Part shown: piece after piece, positions 46,993-64,000 of the stretch
How the letters are laid out: every line of letters starts with the position of its first letter
How positions within the stretch are numbered: the stretch's first letter is position 1
Assembly: GCA_002282445.1 (NCBI GenBank)
Contig: NCJK01000002.1
Location: 248,001 to 312,000, forward strand
DNA: 64,000 bases
Origin: Burkholderiales bacterium 39-55-53
GTDB taxonomy: Bacteria > Pseudomonadota > Gammaproteobacteria > Burkholderiales > Burkholderiaceae_C
Reading direction: 5' to 3'
Translations under genes and position numbers: made by a program
The notes under the pieces: model-generated
What the model was told of the DNA's origin: nothing
The model's input: the letters and a program-made list of their open reading frames with translations, nothing else
The model's database searches: none

Positions 46993-47262
46993 GCTCAGAC
47001 TCTGGACACCCCTGCACCGTCCAGAGTATCCCAAGCGTCCAGATTCTGGACACCCCTGCACCGTCCAGAGTGCTGATATTTCAGTAAAACAGCGGCATAG
47101 CCACCCAATACAGCCCGCTGTAAACGATATCAAAACGCGCTTGACATCAAGTTGAAAAAACAGCCATTTTTTTGCTATACTATGCGTCTCTGCAAAACAC
47201 GACAGTGTTACGCATACCGAATATTCCTCGATAGCTCAGTCGGTAGAGCGCCGGACTGTTAA
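46993..47262. repeat. Direct repeat copy A (element end, 270 bases)
   Basis: The sequence from the first CTCTGGAC motif through the tRNA-Asn promoter and half-tRNA is repeated nearly intact at 49144-49415. It carries four half-sites of TCTGGAC/GTCCAGA, namely 46999-47007, 47019-47027, 47037-47051 (perfect 7-1-7 palindrome) and 47063-47071. Confidence 0.9.
47152..47181 (+). promoter_or_regulatory. tRNA-Asn promoter, copy A
   Basis: TTGAAA (47152-47157) and TATACT (47176-47181) are spaced by 18 bases, 44 bases before the half-tRNA. The same pair and spacing occurs in copy B. Confidence 0.75.
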
Positions 47263-47265
47263 TCC
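47225..47265 (+). pseudogene. 5' half of tRNA-Asn (copy 2)
   Basis: The match to tRNA-Asn covers acceptor, D-arm and anticodon loop and ends at GTTAATCC (47265); then unrelated DNA begins. It lies at the end of element 1 and start of element 2. Confidence 0.9.
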
Positions 47266-49143: not shown

Positions 49144-49415
49144 GCTCATAAACTCTGGACACCCCCGCACCGTCAAGAGTAGCCCAAGCGTCCAGATTCT
49201 GGACACCCCTAGACCGTCCAGAGCGCTGATATTTCGCGAAAAACGCGGCATTGCCACACATCAGAACCCGCAATAAACGACATCAAAACGCGCTTGGCAT
49301 CAAGTTGAAAAAACAGCCATTTTTTTGCTATACTGTGCGTCTCTGCAAAACACGATTCTGTTCTGCATACCGAATATTCCTCGATAGCTCAGTCGGTAGA
49401 GCGCCGGACTGTTAA
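49144..49415. repeat. Direct repeat copy B (element end, 272 bases)
   Basis: The second copy of the element end, with CTCTGGAC/GTCCAGA half-sites at 49152-49160, 49172-49180 (one mismatch), 49190-49204 and 49216-49223, then the tRNA promoter (TTGAAA 49305-49310, TATACT 49329-49334) and half-tRNA. Confidence 0.9.
49378..49415 (+). pseudogene. 5' half of tRNA-Asn (copy 3)
   Basis: The match to tRNA-Asn ends after the anticodon (GTTAA). It is the junction between elements 2 and 3. Confidence 0.9.
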
Positions 49416-49420
49416 GTCCG

Positions 49421-49824
49421 CGGCAATAGGAAAACCCCCACTACTTCGATAAAAAAGTCGTTTAATTTCAACGACTTATTAAACTTTTTTAACCTAAAGT
49501 ATCAATTACACGGTTATTACACGAATAGTTTGCAGGCCTCTCACTAAATTGGAAAGTTGCATATCGCAACTTTTCAAGCCTCACCTCTACTTTTGACTTT
49601 GGCGTCGTCATTTTTGCTCCGCCCTACTTACTCGGTTACAAAGTCAAAAAACTAAGATTTCGGGTTTGCTAACTTCTACGTTTTCACTAATCTCGAAGAA
49701 CCCTTCCAATACTCTGGGACTCTTCCCTGAACGGTTGCCCAGCCAGTGTGGTCGAAACTAAATTTGTGTGACTTTCAATTGCGTAAACGCATTTACTTAG
49801 GCTAAGCAACTTTTGAAGAATCAC
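49421..49824. other. Non-coding left end of element 3
   Basis: No gene is visible. It holds a hairpin (AAGTCGTT with AACGACTT, 49455-49477), the repeat with two TTACACG copies (49497-49527) and a second hairpin (GAAAGTTGC with GCAACTTTTC, 49552-49575). The last two also occur, in the same order, at 39603 and 39660 in element 1. Confidence 0.6.
49497..49527. repeat. Integration-site repeat with two TTACACG copies (copy 3)
   Basis: Nearly identical to 39603-39632: two ATTACACG direct copies, 90 bases after the anticodon break. Candidate arm-type binding site for the integrase that follows. Confidence 0.7.
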
Positions 49825-50853
49825 ATGACAAATGAAATCCAACTGACACCGAATACTTTTTTAAGCACAACAATCAAAAGGCGAATCCCTCTGTGCGGAG
49901 TGGAGTTTGACGAAGACTTCTTAAGCGAACTGGTCAGCAAGCACATGACCCAGTTCCAAAAACATCAAAGACCTAGACTTTCTAACGCCTTTGAAATTTA
50001 CATGCAAGAGAACACATCTTCTCATCGAAGGAAATTTCAAACCAACGCAAATCAATATTTCCGAACGTTCACAACGTTTTTTGGCGATCTGCATTTAGAT
50101 GAACTTAGCCATTCACACATCACCCGCTACCGTGACCATTTATTAGCACGCGGTCTTCACCCCAACAGCATTCGTAAACACAACAACATTTTGAATGCGA
50201 TGATCAACATGGCATTCAAACACTTAGACATTGATAGGCTTAGCCCATTTCGGGGACTTAGTATTCGTGGTGAAGGTGAAAACACAAGACCTATTCCCAA
50301 CATCACCAAAGAGCTTTTATTGCAAGTGAAGGCCTATCTGCTTCATTGGCAATCACCAGCAAAGATGGTTGGACTGATTCAACTCAATACAGGGATGCGA
50401 ATTTCTGAGCCTTCCATGGCACGACTAGAGGACTTAGTACTTGACCATGAAATTCCACATTTGTGGGTAAGAAAAAATAAGTTCACTGATCGAAAAACTA
50501 AAGCAAGCATTCGAGCAGTACCGCTACTTGGCGTGTCGCTTGATGCCGCAAAAGAACTTCACAAACGCGCCACCGCATCAAACAGCGAATGGCTTGTCCC
50601 TCAATATGCAAGTGAAATTGGCGGGACAAATTGCTCGGCAACACTCAACAAATCGATGAAGCACCTAGGCTTTAGAAGCCATATGTTCCGACATGCATTC
50701 ATTGATCGCCTTAAGGGCTGTAATGACATCCCTGTCCCACTTGCGGAAAGCATTACCGGACATGGGCGTGGTCAATCAGACTTTGCAAAATACGGCACAG
50801 TGGGATATTCATTGGAGCAGAAGCTTGAGGTGATTCGCAAGGTCTTAATCTAA
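49825..50853 (+). CDS. Tyrosine recombinase/integrase of element 3
   Basis: A 342-residue site-specific recombinase. An N-terminal SAM-like domain (SSHRRKFQTNANQYFR, HITRYRDHLLARG) is followed by the catalytic domain. Residues in order are R192 (GMRISE), H286-x-x-R289 (HMFRHAF), H313 (ITGHGRGQ) and Y323 or Y328 as nucleophile. The set looks complete and functional. The start is the ATG at 49825 (a TTG four codons upstream is also possible). It lies 400 bases from the half-tRNA and would use that site. Confidence 0.9.
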   Translation: MTNEIQLTPNTFLSTTIKRRIPLCGVEFDEDFLSELVSKHMTQFQKHQRPRLSNAFEIYMQENTSSHRRKFQTNANQYFRTFTTFFGDLHLDELSHSHITRYRDHLLARGLHPNSIRKHNNILNAMINMAFKHLDIDRLSPFRGLSIRGEGENTRPIPNITKELLLQVKAYLLHWQSPAKMVGLIQLNTGMRISEPSMARLEDLVLDHEIPHLWVRKNKFTDRKTKASIRAVPLLGVSLDAAKELHKRATASNSEWLVPQYASEIGGTNCSATLNKSMKHLGFRSHMFRHAFIDRLKGCNDIPVPLAESITGHGRGQSDFAKYGTVGYSLEQKLEVIRKVLI

Positions 50854-51054: not shown

Positions 51055-51130
51055 TCCTCGATAGCTCAGTTGGTAGAGCGCCGGACTGTTAATCCGTAGG
51101 TCCCTGGTTCGAGCCCAGGTCGAGGAGCCA
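51055..51130 (+). tRNA. tRNA-Asn (anticodon GTT)
   Basis: An intact 76-base tRNA with an acceptor stem TCCTCGA/TCGAGGA, D-arm AGCTCAGTTGGTAGAGC, anticodon GTT in CTGTTAATC, T-arm GGTTCGAGCC and an encoded CCA end. It is the only full copy in the locus and the only source here of functional tRNA-Asn. A terminator hairpin follows at 51141-51168. Confidence 0.97.
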
Positions 51131-51140
51131 AAAACCCTTT

Positions 51141-51255: not shown

Positions 51256-52638
51256 ATGCGCGTATTAGGAAGCGAAACTGTCGTAGTCAAGCCAGAGTTG
51301 ATTAGGCTTGTGCGTCGCGACGACAGTAAGAAATGGCAAGCTCATTACAAGCTGGAGAGTGTTAAAACTTGGTTCCGTCGCAGCACAGATACTGCCGATA
51401 TTAAGGAAGCCACCAAGATAGCTGAGCGTATGTGGATGAAGGCCACCTTTGACTTTGAGGAAGGTCGCCCCGTAACCAGTAAAAAGTTCAAGCCAGTGGC
51501 GGAAATCGTTCTGCACCGCTTGGAGGCGGAAATTGCTGCTGGAACCGCCAAACCCAGCGCCAGAGACTATGTGTCAGCCATAAAGTTGTACTTAATCCCC
51601 TTCTACGGCGCTTTCAACGTAGATGGCATCAAGCCGCATGTGATATCCGAATTCCATGTCTGGCGTCGTGAAAAGGTAGGTCGCGAGCTCTCCGGCAGCG
51701 CTCAGAGCAATCACAACGCTGCACTGAACCTAATTTTTGATGAAGCTATTGAGCGCGGCTACATGACAGCCTACGAGCGCCCTCTCACCAAGAACACTGG
51801 GGTTGAAAGTGACCGTCGTGCTGAGTTCAGCCAAGAAGAGCTGGAAGCCATGATGAAGTACGCACCCAAGTTCATTATTGATGGTCGCACAGCCCGTACA
51901 AAAATCATCCGTGAACTACTGGCCATCTATGTACCCTTCATGGCCGCTACTGGTATGCGCCCGGGTACTGAGGCGGAGTACCTAGAGTGGCGGCATATTG
52001 ATGTGGAAATACGTGATGGACAGCCAATCCTGCATTTCCGTCTACAGCGCGGGAAACGCGGCGCACGTAACTTTGTAGCCCATAACAGCTGTTGGCTGCT
52101 GCTAGAGCGCCTACGTCAGCTTAGTCCCGACTTGTCCAGCATGACGCTGGAGGAAGTTTTAAAGAAAAAAATCCCCAAGCTGCTGTTCCGGCTTTCGGAC
52201 GGCTCCGTGCCCGACAACTGGAACAAACCATTCCGTCAGTGGCTTGAGGACTCAGAGTTACTCAACTGCCCTGTTTCGGGCAAGGAGCGCAGCTTGTACA
52301 GCTTGCGCCACTACTACGCCACCCAGCGCTTGCTGGAGGGAATCCCCATTCACGACTTGGCTGAACAGATGGGTACATCTGTATTGATGATCACCAAGCA
52401 CTACAGCCACTTAACGCCTTTAATGAAGGCCAAGCAATTTGCTGGTGTTGTGGACGAGACCGCCAGCACTGAAGCTGCTCAGATCAAAGCCATCATGAGT
52501 GCACAGATGGCTAACAACAACATCATGAACTTGGTGCAGATGGGCACAGGCCTTGTAATGCCCCTGATTGCACAAAACTCCGAACTTACGGACGACTTTG
52601 AGAATCGCCTCAAAGCTCAACGCAAAAAGTCCGCTTAA
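51256..52638 (+). CDS. Tyrosine recombinase/integrase of island 4
   Basis: A 460-residue integrase unrelated in close sequence to the element 3 enzyme. N-terminal DNA-binding and SAM-like parts (about 1-180) precede the catalytic domain: R235 (ATGMRPGTEAE), SLRHYYATQ (R351, H352) and nucleophile Y383 (ITKHYSHL). The usual first His of HxxR is Tyr 348, a variant seen in some recombinases. The C-terminus is extended by about 70 residues. It is next to the intact tRNA-Asn, which is its probable target. Confidence 0.88.
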   Translation: MRVLGSETVVVKPELIRLVRRDDSKKWQAHYKLESVKTWFRRSTDTADIKEATKIAERMWMKATFDFEEGRPVTSKKFKPVAEIVLHRLEAEIAAGTAKPSARDYVSAIKLYLIPFYGAFNVDGIKPHVISEFHVWRREKVGRELSGSAQSNHNAALNLIFDEAIERGYMTAYERPLTKNTGVESDRRAEFSQEELEAMMKYAPKFIIDGRTARTKIIRELLAIYVPFMAATGMRPGTEAEYLEWRHIDVEIRDGQPILHFRLQRGKRGARNFVAHNSCWLLLERLRQLSPDLSSMTLEEVLKKKIPKLLFRLSDGSVPDNWNKPFRQWLEDSELLNCPVSGKERSLYSLRHYYATQRLLEGIPIHDLAEQMGTSVLMITKHYSHLTPLMKAKQFAGVVDETASTEAAQIKAIMSAQMANNNIMNLVQMGTGLVMPLIAQNSELTDDFENRLKAQRKKSA

Positions 52639-52698: not shown

Positions 52699-53178
52699 AT
52701 GTCTGAACTCCTAACACAGTACTTCGAACGCTACGCAGAAGAAGCCATCACCAAGATGAAGGCAGCGCTGATTGCGGTCGATTACTACGAACGGATCAGG
52801 GTCAGACTCGCGAGAAAAGAAGATCTCAGTGGCGAACTAGCCATCATTGCCAAAGTTGGTCCTGCAGGCACTATGGCCGTAGTCAAGGAAGCCATAGCGG
52901 ACTACAAAGCACAAGTTTCAGGTGCTTGGGAATTAAACCAGCGCCTGCAGGACATTGGCAAGCATAAGGTTAGTTTGATTGTTAATGAACGCGAACATCT
53001 ACCCCGAGCAGATGTCTCCTACCAATTTAAAAGCAAGGCCGGCACCGTGAAGGTTCACATCACAACTGCAGGCGAGACTTTTAGATTGGAGATCAATGCA
53101 GGCAAGAATCCTATGGCTGCGCAGATGGCCTGCATTGAACTCGAAAAGCAACTGACATTTATTGCACTTACTGGGTAA
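52699..53178 (+). CDS. Unrecognised 159-residue island protein
   Basis: I do not recognise this protein. The N-terminal half is helical and charged (FERYAEEAITKMKAAL, AIADYKAQVSGAWELNQRL); the C-terminal half looks like strands (VSYQFKSKAGTVKVHITT). Length and the lack of signal peptide suggest a cytoplasmic protein. It lies 60 bases after the integrase and converges on the next gene with an 11-base overlap. Confidence 0.6.
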   Translation: MSELLTQYFERYAEEAITKMKAALIAVDYYERIRVRLARKEDLSGELAIIAKVGPAGTMAVVKEAIADYKAQVSGAWELNQRLQDIGKHKVSLIVNEREHLPRADVSYQFKSKAGTVKVHITTAGETFRLEINAGKNPMAAQMACIELEKQLTFIALTG

Positions 53179-53656
53179 AACCACCCTGCTGCCTAGGAAC
53201 GATGGGCTTGTTCTTGTGATGTGAGAAGTCATATGCTTTGTCCAAAAATTCACACGCTATGTCTATATCGTAGTTTTCGATATCCATAATTTGCACACTT
53301 TTGTTCAATGCCAAGTACTCCCCAAAACACTTAGGTCGAGAGTTCTTAGGTAGATCGTCATAGCGCGGAAATACAAATCGCCACTCGAGTCCATTCATGT
53401 CGTGGTTCAAGTGAAAGCAAGATGCCAGCGTCATAGGCGACAGTCTCATGGATATGTAGATATCAAAAGTTTGACTTTTCTCATCAAGTGACTGCCACAT
53501 GTCCTCTAGTTGCACTGCCTCAATGATGTGCCTTGTGCGAGCTGCCATATCCAACTTGTACAGGGATGCTTCAATCGTTTCATCGTAATCAATGAACGAC
53601 GCGATCTCATCCAAGCTCATGTCGTACAAATATTTAAAAAGATGTGCTTGTTCCAT
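53168..53656 (-). CDS. Unrecognised 162-residue island protein
   Basis: No family is recognised. The start is the ATG at 53656, behind GAGGGTAGG; an upstream TTG at 53671 is possible. The product is acidic and mixed (EQAHLFKYLYDMSLDEIAS, VFPRYDDLPKNSRPKCFGEY, DIDIACEFLDKAYDFSHH). Part of a minus-strand set of three with the following paralogues; it lies 3-15 bases after them. Confidence 0.55.
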   Translation of the reverse strand: MEQAHLFKYLYDMSLDEIASFIDYDETIEASLYKLDMAARTRHIIEAVQLEDMWQSLDEKSQTFDIYISMRLSPMTLASCFHLNHDMNGLEWRFVFPRYDDLPKNSRPKCFGEYLALNKSVQIMDIENYDIDIACEFLDKAYDFSHHKNKPIVPRQQGGFTQ

Positions 53657-53667
53657 GGTGCCTACCC

Positions 53668-54159
53668 TCAAACTGGATGTCGTCTAATCACTTGAAATTT
53701 ATACATCTCATGCAAGGCGCGTTGAAATGTGTATTCAAGATCGTTAGAGCCCATCTGTTCTAGCGCACCATACACACTGATGTCATCACTTGGTGTGTAG
53801 CCTTTAAATCCGGTGCTGTTTTCATAAGCCTCGTCCAAATCACCCAAGGCTTGGTCGAGAACATTTTCTGCATGATCTCTGGCTGATTGAAATGAATTTA
53901 TGGCATCTTGAATATTTGTAACATCATTGCGCCAAGTATCAAGTGTTGACTGTGTAACTTCAATTGAGCACAACGCGTCATCTTTAAGAACAGCAAATGT
54001 GGCGACCTTGGTATCTGCAGGGATTGCCATCAAATAATCTGACGGTCCTGGGTAATGCAGCAAATTTTTAGCGATCTCACAAACCGTCTCTTCAGTACTG
54101 CCACCCGCATGAGTCATAGGTGAATCAGCACGACGTGGAATAACTAGATATCTAGACAT
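53668..54159 (-). CDS. Unrecognised protein, paralogue of the next gene (copy 1)
   Basis: A 163-residue protein (start ATG 54159, with AAAGGAA six bases upstream). It opens MSRYLVIPRR and shares with its neighbour the YLV start, a G-S-x-E-E motif and C-x-IAK, so the pair arose by duplication. Acidic with a helical middle (NVLDQALGDLDEAYENS). No function is known to me. Confidence 0.6.
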   Translation of the reverse strand: MSRYLVIPRRADSPMTHAGGSTEETVCEIAKNLLHYPGPSDYLMAIPADTKVATFAVLKDDALCSIEVTQSTLDTWRNDVTNIQDAINSFQSARDHAENVLDQALGDLDEAYENSTGFKGYTPSDDISVYGALEQMGSNDLEYTFQRALHEMYKFQVIRRHPV

Positions 54160-54170
54160 TGCTATTCCTT

Positions 54171-54659
54171 TCATGCGTGGTGATGGGAGAAAGTTTCGAC
54201 TTCGAAGATCTCCTCGACCTTTTCGGAAATTTCGCCAAACGAGTAGTGCTCAAGATTGTCAAAGGCTCTGTCCATACCAATGTTCTCTAGCACTTTGATC
54301 TCTTGAAAGTTTTTACTTTTTTCACATGCAAGATCTAATGCTCTGGCGGCTTCAACTATTGTGGAATAGGCATCTCCGATGGCATCATCGACGGCATAAG
54401 ATAAATCAGTCAAAGGCGAAATCTCCTTTTCCCAAAGTTCAGCTCGCTCGTCATCAATTTCTACTGAAAATTTCGCTGCCTCTTTAATGCTCTCCCAAGT
54501 AGAGTGCGGGTTCTCCAAGGGGTACGCAATATAGAAATCTTTAGGTAAAGCATCTTGGGAAACTACTTTGGCGATGGTGCAAGCCATCTCCTCCCTGCTG
54601 CCCGGCACATTAGATTGCCCACTACCCGGTTGATTCTTGAATACCAAGTATTTCGTCAT
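54171..54659 (-). CDS. Unrecognised protein, paralogue of the previous gene (copy 2)
   Basis: A 162-residue acidic protein opening MTKYLVFKNQ, with PGSREEMACTIAKV, FYIAYPLENPHS and a C-terminal EKVEEIFEVETFSHHHA ending in three His. Clearly related to the gene just downstream. Possibly a small phage- or island-borne factor; nothing more can be said from the sequence. An imperfect inverted repeat lies just upstream at 54676-54704. Confidence 0.6.
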   Translation of the reverse strand: MTKYLVFKNQPGSGQSNVPGSREEMACTIAKVVSQDALPKDFYIAYPLENPHSTWESIKEAAKFSVEIDDERAELWEKEISPLTDLSYAVDDAIGDAYSTIVEAARALDLACEKSKNFQEIKVLENIGMDRAFDNLEHYSFGEISEKVEEIFEVETFSHHHA

Positions 54660-54753: not shown

Positions 54754-55776
54754 TTAAAAGGGAGCGTCGTCACTGTTATCCATATCAATGACTTCTACTT
54801 TCTTGTGTTTCAGAGGAATCGCCAACTGAACCTGCATTTCCTTGCGCAGGCTTTCAGGCTGAGATTTGTCCATGGAGATCTGCTTCTTAAGATTACGAAC
54901 ACCGTGCTCCAGCACTGTCAAATCGTTTGGCAGCGTCTTACCAATGAACTTGACTAAGTTGTCTTCGTAAGCTTTTCCAAGCTCATTAGCAGAGACCATC
55001 TTGAACTTGCTGCCACCCACATGCACGGCAACGAACACGCAAAAAGATGACGAATCAGTTTTACCCTCTTTATCTTCAGCGTAGACGCAGACATCGCCAT
55101 CAAAATCGAAGTCCAATTTGGATGCCTTGCCAACCAACTCGTAATACTCGCGAATCAGTGCAGTTCTTTCCTTGTTGTTCTTATCACCAGTACCTTTGGC
55201 TAGCGCTGCGGATTCAACGTCCTGAATCTGGCTCACACCACCGCGGCGAGCGATGTATGCGGGCAGATCTGCCGCTACAAGATTTTCTTTTTGCGCCACA
55301 GTCAAAACTTTCAAATAACGGCTCGCTGTAACCTTATCTGAGCGAACCATGTACTTGACCATCGTGGTAATGGCAGGTGTATTGGACTTGAGCGTGATGC
55401 TGTGGTTATCTTTTAAATCCTTACGGATCTCAGTCAAGATCTTTTCCTTGTAACTACTGTTTTCAATTCGCATGGAGAAGTCATAGATCGAAGCCAGTAG
55501 TTCATACAGCGCGTTATGGCCACGCTGGACGATTTCCACTTCATAGCGTTCACCGAGCTTGAACAGTTCAGCACCTTCAGTGAGGAATTTTTGGACCTCC
55601 GGGTTGTTACTCAAGACATCCGTGCCTGCCGCGCTGGCAGTGCGAACCTTCGCAGGCTTGGCAAAGGCACTTAGATCAAAAGTATCAAGATCTACGCCCT
55701 CATATTCCTCTACGGCACTAGGGTTCATTGGGGGCGGCTGCACCCCAACTTTGATGGCTCCATTGGTTAATTGCAT
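54754..55776 (-). CDS. Unrecognised 340-residue island protein with SSB-like acidic tail
   Basis: I do not recognise a family. The N-terminus is proline-rich (VGVQPPPMNPSAVEEYE), the middle is mixed (YEVEIVQRGHNALYELLASI, VVAADLPAYIARRGG) and the C-terminus ends IDMDNSDDAPF. This last segment resembles the acidic tip (DDDIPF) of single-stranded DNA-binding proteins that recruits partner enzymes. It is divergent from the 55914 gene and next to the polymerase-like gene of the island. SSB identity is not proven: no OB fold is obvious to me. Confidence 0.55.
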   Translation of the reverse strand: MQLTNGAIKVGVQPPPMNPSAVEEYEGVDLDTFDLSAFAKPAKVRTASAAGTDVLSNNPEVQKFLTEGAELFKLGERYEVEIVQRGHNALYELLASIYDFSMRIENSSYKEKILTEIRKDLKDNHSITLKSNTPAITTMVKYMVRSDKVTASRYLKVLTVAQKENLVAADLPAYIARRGGVSQIQDVESAALAKGTGDKNNKERTALIREYYELVGKASKLDFDFDGDVCVYAEDKEGKTDSSSFCVFVAVHVGGSKFKMVSANELGKAYEDNLVKFIGKTLPNDLTVLEHGVRNLKKQISMDKSQPESLRKEMQVQLAIPLKHKKVEVIDMDNSDDAPF

Positions 55777-56965: not shown

Positions 56966-57544
56966 CTAAAAACCGCGCTTTTGACCCGAAAACGCACTTT
57001 TTAACTGACTTATTGTTTTGAAAGGGTGCTGGGCACGTGAGTGCATCACCAACTCGTCCTTGTCTCTTTCGTCATAGCCATTAGTCATGGGCTCAATGGG
57101 GGTCACAGGTTTTTGGATGGGGGTTGGTGGCTGGGGGTAGATTCTTTGCTGGGGGTTGGACTTAGTAATCTCTTTTTGCAAGTGCTGGGCTAATTGTTGA
57201 TGCTGCTGAGTCTGCTGCTTAGCTGCTTGGGTTGGAGTTAGCTGCTGGGGGTTGGGCTTTGGTAAGGGCTTGGGTGCTGGAGCCATTGGCGCACGTCTAG
57301 GTTTAACTGCTTTACCCTTAGCCTTAGGCTGAGACTTGTGCGCGGTTTTCACTGGGGCCTTGGGTACATGCTTTGCTGCGGGCTTGACGGGTGTGGTCGC
57401 CTTACCCTGACCCATAGTTGCAGGCTGCCCAGGGGTCATAGAGCTAGACGGTAGTTGCTGTGCAAACGCGCCCCACATCTTGTCCGATACCAACTTCCAT
57501 AATGCCAGTTGGTCCTCGGGGTTGGCAATTTCCATAAATCTCAT
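56966..57544 (-). CDS. Pro/Gln/Lys-rich low-complexity protein
   Basis: A 192-residue protein starting at ATG 57542-57544 with AGGAGA seven bases upstream. The N-terminal 40 residues are ordinary (MEIANPEDQLALWKLVSDKMW). The rest is basic and repetitive (KPAAKHVPKAPVKTAHKSQP, PKPLPKPNPQQLTPTQAAKQ) and probably disordered. No family recognised; possibly a DNA- or protein-binding linker protein. The gap to the divergent 57595 gene has an 11-base inverted repeat. Confidence 0.6.
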   Translation of the reverse strand: MRFMEIANPEDQLALWKLVSDKMWGAFAQQLPSSSMTPGQPATMGQGKATTPVKPAAKHVPKAPVKTAHKSQPKAKGKAVKPRRAPMAPAPKPLPKPNPQQLTPTQAAKQQTQQHQQLAQHLQKEITKSNPQQRIYPQPPTPIQKPVTPIEPMTNGYDERDKDELVMHSRAQHPFKTISQLKSAFSGQKRGF

Positions 57545-57563
57545 CTTTGGTCTCCTTTTCCTA

Positions 57564-57593
57564 CATTTATTTATCTGTTGCCATAAATAAATG
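57564..57593. promoter_or_regulatory. Perfect 11-base inverted repeat between divergent genes
   Basis: CATTTATTTAT-ctgttgcc-ATAAATAAATG, located between the start codons of the 57544 (minus) and 57595 (plus) genes. An operator or transcription-coupled hairpin. Confidence 0.6.
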
Positions 57594-57594
57594 C

Positions 57595-57807
57595 ATGCGG
57601 ATATTTGAGCTTGAAAAACCAAAAACACCAGAGCAATTGAGACTGGATCAACTAAGCGTCACCAGCAAACGGGCAAGTGATGCATTAAAAACTGAACGTG
57701 AAAGACAAAAGGCACAACGCGCACAGCAAGCCCTGCAAAAGCTGCGTATGACAATTAAGCCCAATACCGCTACTGTCAAACCCATTAAGCCAATCAAAGC
57801 CGTTTAG
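57595..57807 (+). CDS. Small basic helical protein (70 residues)
   Basis: From ATG 57595 the product is MRIFELEKPKTPEQLRLDQL, then a highly charged helix (KRASDALKTERERQKAQRAQ) and KPNTATVKPIKPIKAV. Coiled-coil and nucleic-acid contact are likely; family unknown. It is short and embedded in the island, in divergent orientation to the low-complexity gene. Confidence 0.55.
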   Translation: MRIFELEKPKTPEQLRLDQLSVTSKRASDALKTERERQKAQRAQQALQKLRMTIKPNTATVKPIKPIKAV

Positions 57808-57859: not shown

Positions 57860-58348
57860 CTAAGACTTGGCTGGCAACTTCAATGTTGGGCGACTACTAG
57901 TAGCAGAGTCTTTGGCAGAGCTTGCTTTGACCTGTCCCATTACTGCATCAATTCGCTTGTCCAACTCACCCGCGTCCACAGCTGAGCGAATCACTTGAAG
58001 CGAGGTAATCACATCAGCAATGCTGTCAGTTTCGATGGCATTTTTCCCCTCGACTATTTCCAAGGTGCGTGCCCCGTAACGGACAGTTATGCACAGCTTG
58101 CCCTTTTCATCTGACCACCACCAAGGCTTTAACTTCTTAGGCACTTCAACTTTGCGGCTCTGCCCAGTCGCCTCATCCTTTACTGTCCGAACTCTTACAG
58201 GGGAAAACTCAGCGCCCGACTGCTGCGCTTTGGCTAACTGGATTTGCTCAGCTAACTTGGTGCTGAGCTTTTGACGCCTTGCGTGCTGTGGGCTATTGCC
58301 CTTTTCACGCTTGGCTTGAACTAATTTCAACGCGTTTAAACCTGACAT
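57860..58348 (-). CDS. Unrecognised 162-residue island protein (DUF6641-like by memory)
   Basis: Opens MSGLNALKLVQAKREKGNSP, continues with AEQIQLAKAQQSGAEFSPVR, VPKKLKPWWWSDEKGKLCIT and VRYGARTLEIVEGKNAIETD. This pattern recalls DUF6641 proteins of beta-proteobacterial mobile elements, but I cannot verify it. The C-terminus is Lys/Ser-rich. It lies 117 bases before the polymerase-like gene on the same strand and is probably part of the same replication or maintenance set. Confidence 0.55.
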   Translation of the reverse strand: MSGLNALKLVQAKREKGNSPQHARRQKLSTKLAEQIQLAKAQQSGAEFSPVRVRTVKDEATGQSRKVEVPKKLKPWWWSDEKGKLCITVRYGARTLEIVEGKNAIETDSIADVITSLQVIRSAVDAGELDKRIDAVMGQVKASSAKDSATSSRPTLKLPAKS

Positions 58349-58465: not shown

Positions 58466-60052
58466 TCAATCAACAGACAGGTTTGAATAGTGCTCTCGAG
58501 CTCGAATTGTCTCTAGACGTATGCGCTCTTTATGTGCAGCTTCATCCATTTTCAAATCCAAATAACGAGGCTCATAACGCTCCAACTGCTTGTGACTCAA
58601 GCGCCAATAAGGGTTTTTGGTTCGATCTTGCATAGCCATTTCTATGTCATGACGCAAGTCCACGCTGAGCTTGTGCTTGAAGAAAATAGCGTCATGTACT
58701 CGAGCAATGGGTTCGCGGCCGTGTTGGGCAGCTACTTCACAAACAATGTCCATGACTTCGGTTTCATCGTGCTGGTAAAGGTAAGCAAGGATCTTGGATT
58801 TACTGGGTCTGCCACTGGGCGTTTGAAGGAATGATTTGCTGAGCAAGTCCCTACGTGTAGTTTTGACTAATTCATATAAATGCGTATCTAGGATGCTCTG
58901 TTCGTTGATGTAGGCCTGTACTGTTGGATCAGCAAGGAATCGTTCCCTATCAGTGCCGTTTTTGATAATGTCGACTAGCGCAGGATTTGTCCAACCACCT
59001 GATTCGTTTTGCCAGCCAATAGTGTTTTGACGAGCACCAAAGCTGATGGCCGTAAACGCCTGCTTGAGCAATTTAGGTTGAAGATCTTTGTGGACTGGGC
59101 TGTCATCTTCAAATGTGAAGTACTGAACTGTGCCCATGAAGTCAGCTTTGTCTTCCAGAAAATTCAGCGTGGCACTGAAAACCTTGCGCAAATCCTTGCC
59201 CTGCCCATACGCATCGATGTATTGTTTGGCCCAGCCCATCTTCCAAGCTACAACACTTGAGCGGATGTCATATTCAAAGCAATTACCCAGCACTGCTCGG
59301 CGTAGTTCTTTGTTGATGTTTTGAACACTGGTGCCCTCGTAGTACATACGCCCGAATGCACTGGGCTTCTTGCGCTGCACATAGTAGCCATCCATCACAC
59401 TGGAAATGGCCAAAATAATTCGCGCTTGGCGCAGGGCTTGATCTTTCTTTTCTTGGCTGATTTTCTCTGACTCTGTTGTGAGCCAAATGATGTAGCTTTT
59501 GACGCTTTCCTTGTCCACAGGTACAAGGTCAAACAGCTCTTCGATCTCTTCTGATTTAATCCGTTGCTTGAACTCGGGAAACAACAAGTTCAAGACTTGG
59601 TAGTTGCCAAAGTCATCTCCGCAAAGGTACTGATCAATTTCACTATCGCTTTTGCCTGAACGCAATATCTTGTCCTCTACTGCCAGCGTGTCCACCATGG
59701 TCACCAGCTTGGTCAATTTGCACTGGCTCACACTACCTGTTAAGTTTGAGCCAGTGATCACCGACTCAACTAAGTTCAAGTTGTTGTTCCTGAGCCATGC
59801 GTGGACACGCAGCTTTGCAGGCCCAATCTGCCCGCCTTGATTTGCAAGTTGCTGGAGTGAAATAGCGAACAGATCATATTTGCGCTGCAGGGGTGTCGCA
59901 GCAAAATGCAGGCTTTTGAACAGCATGGTCTCAAGCACGCTAATGTATTTAGCCAGTGCTCTATGTGCTGTATTGGCAGGCTTAGGAAACGCCTTTTGCA
60001 GCGCTTCGTAGACTTTTTGATCGACGGTGATTTTGATCATCTGCCACCCCAT
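58466..60052 (-). CDS. Family-A/T7-like polymerase-related protein (novel, island-borne)
   Basis: A 528-residue protein with polymerase signatures in the right order and spacing. GRMYYEGTSVQNIN (234-247) aligns with the GRLSS..PNLQNIP motif of DNA polymerase I, with GR and QNI in register. Motif A is D262 in EYDIRSSVVAW, motif B is K330-x7-FG (LLKQAFTAISFG), and motif C is H453-D454 in RVHDAIFF. The K330-to-D454 distance (124) equals that in E. coli Pol I (K758-D882). The steric-gate Glu of DNA polymerases is not obvious. The N-terminal 230 residues are of unknown type and no 3'-5' exonuclease is visible. An RNA polymerase or primase role is possible. Confidence 0.7.
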   Translation of the reverse strand: MGWQMIKITVDQKVYEALQKAFPKPANTAHRALAKYISVLETMLFKSLHFAATPLQRKYDLFAISLQQLANQGGQIGPAKLRVHAWLRNNNLNLVESVITGSNLTGSVSQCKLTKLVTMVDTLAVEDKILRSGKSDSEIDQYLCGDDFGNYQVLNLLFPEFKQRIKSEEIEELFDLVPVDKESVKSYIIWLTTESEKISQEKKDQALRQARIILAISSVMDGYYVQRKKPSAFGRMYYEGTSVQNINKELRRAVLGNCFEYDIRSSVVAWKMGWAKQYIDAYGQGKDLRKVFSATLNFLEDKADFMGTVQYFTFEDDSPVHKDLQPKLLKQAFTAISFGARQNTIGWQNESGGWTNPALVDIIKNGTDRERFLADPTVQAYINEQSILDTHLYELVKTTRRDLLSKSFLQTPSGRPSKSKILAYLYQHDETEVMDIVCEVAAQHGREPIARVHDAIFFKHKLSVDLRHDIEMAMQDRTKNPYWRLSHKQLERYEPRYLDLKMDEAAHKERIRLETIRAREHYSNLSVD

Positions 60053-60198: not shown

Positions 60199-60335
60199 CT
60201 TGGACTGATTGAAGCCAAATCAAGCAAGTCCTTCTTTGTCAGGAACAAGACCGAAATTCCGAGCAAATGCGGCCCAGATCATCCGGTTGGCAACTAGTCC
60301 AGCAGAGCATAAAATGGCTAAAACACGGGCTAAAT

Positions 60336-60848
60336 TTGAAAAAAATCATCATCATTGCAGGACCCAACGGCGCAGGCAAAACCACATTTGCCCATGACTT
60401 TTTGCCTGCTGAAGCCCAAACGCTGCGCTTTATCAACGCCGACTTGATTGCTGCTGGCTTGGCTCCATTCAATCCAGAGACTGCATCCTTCAAGGCAGGC
60501 CGGTTGATGCTGGAAGAGATTGATGAGTGTGTGGACGCTGGACACAGCTTTGCGTTTGAAACTACGCTGTCAGGCTTGACCTATTTGAAAAAGATCCCCT
60601 TGTGGCAAACCCATGGCTACCAAGTCAAGCTCTGGTTCTTGTCATTGGCCAATGTAGAAATTGCTGTTTCAAGAGTTGCCCGCCGTGTTCTGCAAGGTGG
60701 ACATAACATTCCCGAAGACGTTATTCGCAGGCGCTTTAAAGCAGGCTTAGCTAACTTCAACGAGCGTTACAGCAAGGCAGTTGACTCTTGGGCGTTTTAT
60801 GACAGCTCTGGCATGCACCCAAAACTAATTGACTGGAGTAACAAATGA
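60336..60848 (+). CDS. Zeta-toxin-like AAA/P-loop kinase
   Basis: A 170-residue P-loop protein with Walker A IAGPNGAGKTTFA near the N-terminus, FINADLIAAGLAPFNPE, AFETTLSG and SRVARRVLQGGHNIPEDVI. The pattern fits zeta toxins and related UDP-sugar or small-molecule kinases. No ATG is available in frame close to the P-loop: TTG 60336 is the best start, though the frame runs open from 60267. Its stop shares ATGA with the next gene, forming a two-gene unit like toxin-antitoxin modules. Confidence 0.7.
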   Translation: MKKIIIIAGPNGAGKTTFAHDFLPAEAQTLRFINADLIAAGLAPFNPETASFKAGRLMLEEIDECVDAGHSFAFETTLSGLTYLKKIPLWQTHGYQVKLWFLSLANVEIAVSRVARRVLQGGHNIPEDVIRRRFKAGLANFNERYSKAVDSWAFYDSSGMHPKLIDWSNK

Positions 60849-61051
60849 ACACCAAAGATATTCGCACCTCCACTGATCCAGATCTGGCAGGCTCATATGC
60901 GGCCATGGAACGTGCAGCACGTGCAGCCCAAGATCTAGCCATCAAAACTAACACGGGTATCGTTGTTGCAGTTGATGGAAAGAACGTTGAATTGACTGCG
61001 GCTGATTTGATCAAGCTACGTGACCAGGAAGCACAACACCCTCATCACTGA
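60845..61051 (+). CDS. Small partner protein of the zeta-like kinase
   Basis: A 68-residue protein starting at ATG 60845, overlapping the kinase stop by 4 bases. It opens MNTKDIRTSTDPDLAGSYAA, is Ala-rich and helical (MERAARAAQDLAIKTN), and ends in a short acid/His tail. It is a plausible antitoxin or neutraliser, though the usual order would be antitoxin first. A terminator follows at 61074-61097. Confidence 0.6.
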   Translation: MNTKDIRTSTDPDLAGSYAAMERAARAAQDLAIKTNTGIVVAVDGKNVELTAADLIKLRDQEAQHPHH

Positions 61052-61129: not shown

Positions 61130-61297
61130 ATGATGCACACCTACCAAGCATCAGTTCGGGCACAAGTTCGAGGCCGCAGCCAAGTGATTAAGACGGAAGT
61201 TAGAGCCCTGAACGCGCAGGACGCGCGTTGGTTGCTATGGGCTCAGTACGGATTTCACAGCATTCAAGCTGGCCCAAGCCTAATCAATTCTCGCTAG
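61130..61297 (+). CDS. Small 55-residue protein
   Basis: From ATG 61130 (or 61133) the frame gives MMHTYQASVRAQVRGRSQVI, then TEVRALNAQDARWLLWAQYG and ends at TAG 61297. It has the look of small phage- and plasmid-encoded proteins (a short beta-sheet followed by an Ala/Asp-rich helix with Trp). No family recognised. It lies after the terminator, so it would need its own promoter. Confidence 0.5.
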   Translation: MMHTYQASVRAQVRGRSQVIKTEVRALNAQDARWLLWAQYGFHSIQAGPSLINSR

Positions 61298-61362: not shown

Positions 61363-61764
61363 TTATTTTGATTCTTTCAATAACTGTTTCATTTCGGCAA
61401 TTTCTTTTTTCTGCATAGTGATTATTTCTTGAGCAAGCTGACGAATCTTTGGATTCTTACCATGTTGTAAAACTACTTCTGCCATATCAACAGCTCCCTG
61501 ATGGTGTGGAATCATGGCAGCAAGAAAATCTTTATCAGCATCGCCTGTGAATTTTATGTCCATGCTTTTGTGCATGTTGTCATTGATCTGCTGATATTTT
61601 TTTGTGGATGTCGTCGCCGTTTCCGTGCTTGATGCTGAGGAACTGTGTCCTGCGTGCGAACCATGCCCAGCATGCGGATCGGTTGCTTTGGTTTGTGCTG
61701 CGACTCCGAAGCAGAAAAATGCCGTTGAAGCAATCAAGATTATTTTGTGTGAAGTGTTTTTCAT
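61363..61764 (-). CDS. DUF305 family exported protein, likely copper-related
   Basis: A 133-residue protein with a signal peptide (IILIASTAFFCFGVAA) and His/Gly-rich linker DPHAGHGSHAGHSS. The DUF305 motif FLAAMIPHHQGAVDMAEV follows, whose His residues probably bind copper or another metal. These proteins are often found with metal-efflux genes, as here beside an RND pump. It is on the minus strand, like the pump. Confidence 0.85.
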   Translation of the reverse strand: MKNTSHKIILIASTAFFCFGVAAQTKATDPHAGHGSHAGHSSSASSTETATTSTKKYQQINDNMHKSMDIKFTGDADKDFLAAMIPHHQGAVDMAEVVLQHGKNPKIRQLAQEIITMQKKEIAEMKQLLKESK

Positions 61765-61921
61765 TTTGATATGTCCTTAGATTTTTTTGTTAATGTTTAA
61801 TTTTGAATGAGATTAATTAAACATAAAAAAGATTGCAAAAATTTTCGAAAAATACCCACGATACGAAAACATTAAAGTTGTTTAAGTTTCAATGCAAAGC
61901 TCACAATTAAGGTCAAATTTT

Positions 61922-62302
61922 TTATTTAATCGTAAATCGCACAGTCATGCTCTTGCCGTTGACGTTGCTCAGCGCAGCGACGAGTTTGTCACCTTTGCCC
62001 AGATTGACGCCCATGACACGCAGCGTGTTGTCGCCTCCTTCTTTGATGTCTGCCTCGGATTTTTTGGTACCTTGCAAGACGGTGAGCTTGCCAGTGATGC
62101 CTTTGGTGGCCATCGGTTTGTCATGGTCCATCATGTAGATCGTGGCGCCATCCGCCTGAACGACCAGTTCAAAGCTCAGGTCATTGGCCTTCTGCACGAT
62201 GCCGCCATGCTGGGGCTTGGCGTTGCCATGAGCCTGGACCGGGTTCATGCCCAGGCAGTAAATGGCCAAACCAGCGACTGTAATCAAATGCTTCATCTTC
62301 AT
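61922..62302 (-). CDS. Small periplasmic protein of a metal efflux locus
   Basis: A 126-residue product (from ATG 62302; ATG 62296 also possible) with signal peptide HLITVAGLAIYCLGMNPVQA followed by HGNAKPQHGGIVQKANDLSF. The C-terminal part is beta-rich (TLRVMGVNLGKGDKLVAAL, KSMTVRFTIK). I recall such proteins next to CzcA/CusA pumps in beta-proteobacteria, with an unproven metal-binding role. It begins 68 bases after the pump stop. Confidence 0.7.
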   Translation of the reverse strand: MKMKHLITVAGLAIYCLGMNPVQAHGNAKPQHGGIVQKANDLSFELVVQADGATIYMMDHDKPMATKGITGKLTVLQGTKKSEADIKEGGDNTLRVMGVNLGKGDKLVAALSNVNGKSMTVRFTIK

Positions 62303-62369
62303 GTTTCTAAACTCCATGTATGGCGTGGTGCGCTTGAAGGCGGCACCACCAAACCTGTCGATCACCTCG

Positions 62370-64000
62370 TCAAAACGCATCGTGCTCGGGTCGCTGCGGC
62401 TCATGGTCGGTGCTGCTGGGCTTCAACAGCCGTTCCGTTGCGTCGGCTCCAAAGCGCCAGAACAGCAGAGGTGTTAGCAGAGTGTCTAAAAGCGTGGAAC
62501 TAACCAAGCCGCCAAAGATAACAACCGCGACGGGGTGCAGAATCTCCTTGCCCGGCGCATCGCCGGCCATCAGCAGCGGCGTTAACGCGAAGGCCGCCAC
62601 CAGAGCAGTCATCAGCACCGGTGTCAGCCGCTCAATCGAGCCGCGCACGATCATGGGCTGGCTGAAGGTCTCGCCCTCAAATTTGCACAAATTGATGTAA
62701 TGGCTGATCTTCAAGATGCCGTTGCGCGTGGCAATACCCGCTAAAGTAATGAAGCCCACCATTGTGGCCACCGATAGCGTCACGCCCGCCAGCCACATCG
62801 CGACCACACTGCCGATCAGGGCCAGCGGAATGTTGGCCATGATGATGCCCGCCAGCACCGCCGAACGATAGCGTGAGTAAAGCACCAAGAACATAAGCGC
62901 CAGCGACACCAGCGACAAGCCCATGATCTGTCCGGTGGCCTGCTCTTGCGCCTGGAATTGACCCTCCAGATTTATAAAGCTGCCACTGGGAAGCGCTGTA
63001 GCAGCAATAGCTTGGCGAATGTCTGCCACGATGCGGCCCATGTCGGAGCCATCGCTGTTGGCATAAACGACGATACGCCGGCGGCCATTTTCTCGCCCTA
63101 TTTGGTTGGGGCCGTCGGATTCCGTCACCGTGGCGAAGCTCGACACCGGTAAGCGTCCAGCCGGCGCATCTACCAGCATGCGTGCCAGATCCTGCGGGCT
63201 GCGCTTGTCGTCGGGCAGCCGCAGAACCAAGTCGTAGCGCTTGGCACCATCCACAATTTGCGAGCCATGAGCACCGTCCGTCAGCGCCTTCAGGATGCGC
63301 AGTGCCTCACCCGGCGCCAGGCCTGTCTGCGCCAGACGCTGCGGGTCAAGCCGGACCATGATCTGTGGGATCAGCACCTGCTTCTCAACAGTCAAGTCCA
63401 CCAGGCCGGGAATGGTGGCCAACTGGCCGCGCATCTGTTCGGCCAGCCCACGCAAGGTGTCGGTGTCGTCGCCGTAAATCTTTACCGCGATCTGGGCACG
63501 AACGCCCGAAAGCAAGTGATCCAACCTGTGCGAAATCGGCTGACCAATGGCCACTTGTCCGGGCAATACGGCCAGTTGGGCGCGAATGCGGGCCATCACT
63601 TCTTCACGGTCGACTGGCTTACCATCGCGATGCAAGTCCACGTCAATCTCGGTCGAATGCACGCCCTCGGCATGCTCGTCGAGTTCAGCTCGACCCGTAC
63701 GCCGACCCACCTGACTGACGCCAGGCACCTGGCCGATCAGTTGTTCGGCCACCGCCCCCATGCGATTGGCCTCGGCCAGCGAAGTGCCCGGGTTGAACAA
63801 CAGAGACAGCACCAGCGAGCCCTCGTTGAAAGCCGGCAGAAAAGCGCGTGGAAAAAAGGGCACACTGACGGCGGCCAAAGCAACTGCCACAACCGCGCCA
63901 CTAATCAGGACCCGCGCACGCGGAAAGGACCAGTCCAGCAACCTTCGGTCCCAAGCCTTCAGGCGCGTCACAAGGGGGCTGTCACCGTGTCCCAATTGTT
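62370..64000 (-). CDS. Heavy-metal RND efflux pump, CzcA/CusA type (5' part outside window)
   Basis: The frame runs to the window edge, so about the C-terminal half (over 540 residues) is visible. Typical HME-RND parts are a hydrophobic segment (VLISGAVVAVALAAVSVPFF), FNEGSLVLSLLFNPGTSLAE, a periplasmic domain and repeated membrane helices (LVSLALMFLVLYSRYRSAVL, IPLALIGSVVAMWLAGVTLS). It would export divalent metal or Cu+/Ag+ across the envelope. The substrate cannot be decided here. The DUF305 and small periplasmic protein genes follow on the same strand. Confidence 0.92.
   Translation of the reverse strand, partial: QLGHGDSPLVTRLKAWDRRLLDWSFPRARVLISGAVVAVALAAVSVPFFPRAFLPAFNEGSLVLSLLFNPGTSLAEANRMGAVAEQLIGQVPGVSQVGRRTGRAELDEHAEGVHSTEIDVDLHRDGKPVDREEVMARIRAQLAVLPGQVAIGQPISHRLDHLLSGVRAQIAVKIYGDDTDTLRGLAEQMRGQLATIPGLVDLTVEKQVLIPQIMVRLDPQRLAQTGLAPGEALRILKALTDGAHGSQIVDGAKRYDLVLRLPDDKRSPQDLARMLVDAPAGRLPVSSFATVTESDGPNQIGRENGRRRIVVYANSDGSDMGRIVADIRQAIAATALPSGSFINLEGQFQAQEQATGQIMGLSLVSLALMFLVLYSRYRSAVLAGIIMANIPLALIGSVVAMWLAGVTLSVATMVGFITLAGIATRNGILKISHYINLCKFEGETFSQPMIVRGSIERLTPVLMTALVAAFALTPLLMAGDAPGKEILHPVAVVIFGGLVSSTLLDTLLTPLLFWRFGADATERLLKPSSTDHEPQRPEHDAF

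Follow-up and report, generated by a model that had tools for sequence, protein, structure and literature searches.

A TV-Pol-like family-A polymerase on tRNA-Asn islands of a presumed Limnohabitans genome

A protein of 528 residues encoded in the window (the whole stretch of DNA analysed here, 64,000 nucleotides, C7:248001-312000 of a 2.56 Mb genome in 14 contigs) most likely belongs with the TV-Pols, a known but little-studied family of polymerases; a palm fold is predicted from its sequence. The gene lies on an integrative island at tRNA-Asn, and the enzyme most likely primes and/or copies this island after excision. The original prediction described a small family-A-type polymerase, and this is borne out by the invariance of R235 and of the two aspartates D262 and D454, together with a profile relation to superfamily A. 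It further suggested an undescribed replication or repair system. For the enzyme this does not hold, because in its catalytic half the protein clusters with the TV-Pols, a family known since 2008 (PMC2579912). The enzyme family is thus already known, and what is new is the setting: integrative islands of a presumed Limnohabitans.

TV-Pols were predicted in 2008, from gene context, to be primase-polymerases that serve as replication enzymes of small mobile elements (PMC2579912). One of them, CcPol, makes DNA primers de novo together with its partner MP, an activity that is lost if either catalytic Asp is changed; the 2020 SCCmec paper reporting this knew no other biochemically studied TV-Pol (PMC7581432). 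With four natural copies in a single genome and mapped attachment repeats, a compact TV-Pol would allow both priming and the function of the N-terminal part to be studied outside staphylococci. In addition, a number of unnamed proteins, from plasmids of Polaromonas and Calothrix and from phages of Vibrio, Desulfovibrio and Microcystis, gain a likely function through this relation. Table 1 lists the features of the island within the window.

Table 1. Island features and polymerase residues, with positions numbered from the first nucleotide of the window
Feature	Position	Strand	Evidence
tRNA-Asn (gtt), island attachment gene	51055..51130	+	ARAGORN
Attachment core	51086..51134	+	Other copies identical over 48, 49 and 46 bp
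Tyrosine integrase Int460	51256..52638	+	PF00589 E 9.8e-7; phrog_1 integrase E 2.1e-27
Conserved island protein fam9, 159 aa, adjoins integrase	52699..53178	+	Homologues in other loci
Three small conserved island proteins (fam6, fam6, fam16)	53168..54659	-	Homologues in other loci
Conserved island protein fam10, 340 aa, the 'SSB-like tail' protein	54754..55776	-	Homologues in other loci
Conserved island protein fam11, 315 aa	55914..56861	+	Homologues in other loci
Pro/Gln-rich fam13, third gene of same-strand run	56966..57628	-	Homologues in L014, L018, L066, partly L002
DUF6641 protein, next downstream of polymerase	57860..58348	-	PF20346 E 1.8e-14; untruncated in 7/13 loci
TV-Pol-like family-A polymerase, 528 aa	58466..60052	-	Profile comparison, alignment
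D454 codon, motif C (HD)	58691..58693	-	Invariant 10/10
K330 codon, motif B (K-x7-FG)	59063..59065	-	Invariant 10/10
D262 codon, motif A metal-binding Asp	59267..59269	-	Invariant 10/10; Asp in 19/19 TV-Pol-like rows
R235 codon, GR of hairpin segment	59348..59350	-	Invariant 10/10
Zeta-toxin/AAA_33-type P-loop kinase, accessory	60267..60848	+	PF06414 E 1.3e-10
Small protein fam21, beside kinase	60845..61051	+	Also in C11 copy
Small conserved island protein (ARWLL motif)	61130..61297	+	Recurs in other loci
Cargo start: DUF305 protein, protein without Pfam match, AcrB-type efflux pump	61363..63995	-

Active-site pattern and relation to TV-Pols

The polymerase frame is intact and open, and the residues named in the original prediction are placed as claimed (G234, R235, Q244, N245, I246, D262, V267, K330, F338, G339, H453 and D454). 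K330 and D454 are 124 residues apart, the same distance as between K758 and D882 of E. coli Pol I, and in the GR...QNI segment the Arg-to-Gln spacing is nine residues in both proteins (R235-Q244 and R668-Q677). Other distances differ: the Arg precedes the motif-A Asp by 27 residues against 37 in E. coli Pol I, and 68 residues against 53 separate this Asp from the Lys. When the window protein is aligned with nine relatives that share 31-95% identity with it, nine of the 11 named residues are invariant in all ten sequences, compared to 66 of the 528 positions overall, which exceeds chance (hypergeometric p = 2e-7, or 1.6e-6 within residues 231-528); N245 and I246 are the two that vary. The gene also shows a dN/dS of 0.053-0.062 against three orthologues, while dS was saturated in three further, more distant comparisons, which gave no value. 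Invariant named residues and low dN/dS together show that the gene is under purifying selection and that the pattern of its active site is conserved.

Searched alone, the window protein has no significant match in Pfam, PHROGs (best E 0.27), PADLOC or PDB sequences. As predicted, no exonuclease is recognised with Pfam, nor does any nuclease match above the curated cut-off: the best NCBIfam match, a weak one to a restriction endonuclease, has E 0.058 and 12.5 bits at a cut-off of 53. This silence of the libraries is no sign of novelty, because the candidate TV-Pol of Microcystis phage Ma-LMM01 is equally without match in Pfam and NCBIfam. With tblastn, three weak phage records were obtained (E 0.01-0.05, two of them from one phage). 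At E 0.05 these pointed to a Desulfovibrio phage and at E 0.01 to a T5-like DNA polymerase; two other members of the polymerase family used as queries gave zero phage matches. The copy in locus L020 gave one weak plasmid lead, Polaromonas pW9NP1 (E 0.8). These leads were retained because the profile comparison later backed them. Viral contigs yielded no relative to any of four queries, namely the window protein, the alignment of its family and the proteins from pW9NP1 and from the Desulfovibrio phage.

For the profiles 24 loci were handled, of which seven had no frame fitting the motif pattern and six near-copies or fragments were omitted; the other 11 sequences make up the Limnohabitans profile, and eight other TV-Pol-like proteins bring the joint profile to 19. 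Profile against profile (hhalign), the Limnohabitans family matches these eight proteins at E 6.7e-16, and the same set minus the Desulfovibrio protein at E 1.4e-9, whereas reversed targets, used as control, gave E 0.14 or worse. The cyanobacterial set with Ma-LMM01 is matched at E 0.0044 (8% probability) and Vibrio phage GR11A at E 0.13; the Polaromonas pair matches the cyanobacterial set at E 2.2e-11. A comparison with family-A and single-subunit RNA polymerases had been proposed along with the original prediction, and in it the joint profile lies closer to DNA than to RNA polymerases (E 1.8e-6 for nine DNA polymerases against E 8e-3 for nine T7-like RNA polymerases). When the Limnohabitans profile is compared to 174 single proteins, ranks 1-3 go to the protein of the Desulfovibrio phage and those of the two Polaromonas plasmids, and rank 4 to the T5-like DNA polymerase. 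The top ranks of the Polaromonas and Desulfovibrio proteins are confirmatory rather than independent, as these proteins were found with the Limnohabitans family as query. The same profile separates 19 family-A/T7-type polymerases from 150 others, decoys that by mistake include P60 RNA polymerase, with an AUC of 0.943, and of 0.911 among proteins of at least 500 aa (17 against 25).

The connection to a published TV-Pol runs through the plasmids. The pH8NP1 protein of Polaromonas leads to MAP_030 of phage Ma-LMM01 (tblastn E 6e-5), and MAP_030 as query leads to a Calothrix plasmid (E 4e-8) and to pH8NP1 (E 2e-4); between the Limnohabitans family and Ma-LMM01 the link is significant only through the Polaromonas proteins. 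Iyer et al. list Ma-LMM01 as a TV-Pol carrier and write of an 'element integrated in the genome' (PMC2579912). MAP_030 adjoins two transposase genes, as this wording suggests, and is our candidate for their Ma-LMM01 protein; the identification was made in this analysis, the gene name being absent from the main text of PMC2579912.

A tree of 32 catalytic segments (among them nine of the 11 Limnohabitans rows and five of the eight other TV-Pol-like proteins) groups the Limnohabitans and TV-Pol-like rows apart from DNA and RNA polymerases with a support of 93/81, just below the mark of the tool (95/80). Support for the DNA-polymerase group itself is low (63/48), and the tree has several long branches. 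The nine RNA polymerases cluster by themselves (100/99), and no Limnohabitans or TV-Pol-like row falls among them. Common to the TV-Pol-like rows is a signature of GRxY, LQ or VQ, an Arg, an Asp after Y, K...GA, Q..E and HD. Departures are seen at GR (MAP_030, its Microcystis kin and the Vibrio protein), at the Arg (Calothrix and Vibrio proteins) and at the Y (Desulfovibrio protein), and the Calothrix piece ends before HD.

In general build the window protein is like a TV-Pol: both are globular, with 400-600 residues and a superfamily-A core that has the hairpin Arg and two catalytic Asp, both are without a nuclease domain, and both occur on mobile elements, some TV-Pols together with lambda-type integrases and with an N-terminal domain. 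Iyer, Abhiman and Aravind (2008) report the hairpin Arg as absolutely conserved, and describe a bihelical coiled-coil thumb and fingers with an RxxxK motif and a conserved Asp (PMC2579912). Unlike this description, the Arg of RxxxK is absent in the window protein, which has Pro at position -4 from K330, nor is it seen at that place in MAP_030. Many published TV-Pols have a D5_N helicase, whereas the whole window genome yields zero PF08706 matches (the control search matched in three of 14 genomes). The N-terminal 230 residues had been said to resemble nothing; indeed, no relation to the TV-Pol-like relatives compared was detected (best E 0.03), and a domain common to these proteins is not supported.

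Other relatives outside the islands can be compared likewise. The proteins of Polaromonas plasmids pW9NP1 and pH8NP1 (538 and 501 aa) have the same motifs, but they are found on plasmids rather than islands and are 25% identical over the aligned part. No polymerase is named on either plasmid in the available portion of the paper describing them (PMC6015842). The divPolA2 proteins of barbaviruses and other phages offer a similar layout, a globular domain at the N-terminus, a divergent version of the PolA palm and no exonuclease (PMC11348598; AUR84708), and show GRMY...QNLPK and YDF motifs (AUR84708), but have VFDE where the window protein has HD. Membership in the same subfamily is not supported (the Limnohabitans profile gives E 0.28 and the joint profile of 19 gives E 0.021).

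Islands at tRNA-Asn and their genes

That the polymerase sits on a tRNA-Asn island with an integrase is confirmed by the attachment repeats and Int460. The 3' half of the tRNA-Asn gene, from the anticodon loop onwards (CTGTTAA...), is found at C7:299086 (the tRNA itself, window 51086), C7:332881, C7:437913 and C8:23009, and at the last three sites the identity to the window stops exactly at the left edge. Each repeat on C7 is followed by Int460 and the same genes with variations. Three Int460 islands stand in tandem at tRNA-Asn, each beginning with the tRNA 3' half (repeats of 46-49 bp). Given the next repeat at C7:332881, the first island measures about 33.8 kb and ends beyond the window. The second (C7:332881 to C7:437913; L017 and L063) has the polymerase as well, with two copies in an interval of 105 kb, and the third continues off the contig end. 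At C8:23009 no island gene was seen within the 4 kb looked at. Using the C8 junction to search for a clean empty site, none was obtained; tRNA-Asn 3'-fragments in many genomes of the genus were found instead.

Upstream of the full tRNA-Asn gene, two copies of its 5' half are present (window 47222-47265 and 49375-49420), and an integrase, Int346, lies at 49813-50853 between the second copy and the tRNA. This arrangement suggests that one and the same site in the anticodon loop has been invaded by elements from either side.

A search for homologues and a comparison of neighbourhoods, both proposed with the original prediction, covered 13 polymerase loci, some of which are cut by contig ends, and showed that constant island genes recur. 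A DUF6876 match is present in 11/13 loci and a short tyrosine recombinase in 10/13; Int460 is found in six and an untruncated DUF6641 protein in seven. In locus L057 the recombinase has 190 aa and consists of the catalytic domain only (L057:5985-6557), and the DUF6876 protein is at L057:5047-5535; both recur. One neighbour had been predicted to carry an SSB-like tail, but this tail is not conserved: DDAPF in the window protein (fam10) is DDAPL in L002 and different in L004 and L017, and the fam10 profile has no match in the PDB.

Beyond the polymerase the islands vary. The kinase gene and its small partner (60267-61051) stand between polymerase and cargo; in the C11 copy (L014:14436-14759) the partner is kept while the middle of the kinase gene fails to align. 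Cargo extends past the window end toward C7:332881 and, with the scan beyond the window covering four of the 27 frames listed for L057, includes in the first island genes of the metal-resistance type (AcrB-type efflux pump, heavy-metal-type P-type ATPase, multicopper oxidase). In a genome of another genus (G189, L020:1-19998) the polymerase is flanked by repeated modules of a porin-like gene (judged by eye), short recombinase, DUF6641 and integrase.

Role of the polymerase

We consider the polymerase to be probably a dedicated replication enzyme, either primase or replicase, of the integrative island, the priming step being deduced from its relatives. Int460 would cut out the island at the 3'-half repeats of tRNA-Asn that flank it; on the resulting circle the polymerase would make or extend a primer and copy the island, possibly assisted by the helicase and replisome of the host, after which the copied circle would survive until reintegration. 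As the genome has no D5_N helicase, another helicase, perhaps that of the host, would be needed. The position of related genes fits replication: on pW9NP1 the gene directly precedes repA, ending 10 bases before it (on pH8NP1 it is not next to repA), and in Vibrio phage GR11A it precedes RNase HI.

An RNA polymerase was one of the types suggested originally from the steric-gate position. Here V267 is confirmed, but the inference from it is weak, as this position (motif A +5) holds Val, Ala, His or Gln across the 19 TV-Pol-like rows: Val in ten Limnohabitans rows, Ala in the eleventh, and His, Val or Gln in the remaining rows. Since the lack of Glu is common to these TV-Pol-like proteins, it is no evidence for an RNA polymerase. 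A single-subunit enzyme transcribing the island genes, or making RNA primers only, would nonetheless agree with Val instead of Glu, with a hairpin GRMY resembling GRVY of T7 RNA polymerase, and with F338 at the place of T7 Tyr639 (this K+8 position is Phe in 11/11 Limnohabitans rows). Tyr639 of T7 RNA polymerase senses the ribose, and Phe at this place (Y639F) relaxes sugar choice. Moreover, the Limnohabitans profile alone matches RNA polymerases (E 8.2e-4, 24%) only a little less well than DNA polymerases (E 2.3e-4, 44%) and cannot choose between them. However, the joint profile favours DNA polymerases, the RNA polymerases stand apart in the tree, and relatives lie beside repA and RNase HI, which makes this role very unlikely. 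CcPol-MP, a TV-Pol that has been examined biochemically, shows a preference for dNTPs over NTPs (PMC7581432).

Repair or translesion synthesis as host cargo, like umuC on plasmids, has an equally low probability in our view. It would suit the lack of a recognised exonuclease domain and the ImpB/MucB-type Y-family polymerase on one island locus (L019:6652-7923, 1.5 kb from the TV-Pol gene), but the polymerase tracks the constant part of the islands (DUF6876 and short recombinase) whereas the adjacent cargo varies. A somewhat less improbable, still unlikely proposal is a PolA-SSB primase as in SCCmec, which needs a small single-strand-binding partner. CcPol-MP, likewise a family-A polymerase borne by an integrative element that has a site-specific recombinase, is a precedent for it (PMC7581432, PMC10061031), and the candidate partner, the DUF6641 protein, is encoded downstream on the same strand in 7/13 loci, although in two of these not directly adjacent. 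Against it, six of the 13 loci have no untruncated DUF6641, the protein also occurs with integrases away from the polymerase (L020), and its profile finds nothing better than E 0.56 in the PDB, so that it is a candidate by position only. The PolA-SSB primases surveyed also all come from Bacillota and carry Pol domains close to Pol I, and the gene for their OB-fold partner is placed between those for polymerase and helicase (PMC10061031), whereas the window genome is without D5_N helicase and offers DUF6641 only as a candidate. Slightly better placed, though we would not expect it to be right, is a two-part, helicase-free primase-polymerase serving integrative islands in Gram-negative bacteria, in which a new N-terminal module would bind DNA, DUF6641 would be the template-binding partner and dNTPs and NTPs would be used alike to start and extend strands; this last element is suggested by F338 occupying the place of Tyr639 of T7 RNA polymerase. 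On balance we retain the dedicated replication enzyme of the island as the preferred explanation.

Distribution

The nearest named matches of the window polymerase are in Limnohabitans sp. Rim11 and 2KL-17 (95% protein identity), and the host looks like Limnohabitans, a genus of freshwater life. Four copies are present in the window genome (100, 74, 69 and 42% identity). A scan of the genus gave a match in 12 of 84 genomes, two of the 12 with fragments only. Drawing from the family, 4/299 genomes match (the window's own, two from the same genus and one from another genus), and draws from the order (1/300) and the phylum (1/398) returned both times only the window's own genome; a scan of named genomes gave five loci. 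The Limnohabitans polymerase family as such is therefore narrow. Two short contigs bearing a copy, C11 (21.7 kb) and G184:C5 (17.5 kb), were inspected for circularity and showed no end overlap.

Among the literature matches listed, no description of Limnohabitans islands was found, and none tied an A-family polymerase to mobile elements by that phrase; a mention of DUF6641 or DUF6876 was likewise not found in the literature. In Vibrio phage GR11A (L059:1951-4720) an unnamed TV-Pol-like protein is followed by RNase HI. On Calothrix plasmid6 (L060:1180-2559) a TV-Pol-like frame without a listed gene reaches the end of the record, with its remainder probably at the beginning of the circular sequence.
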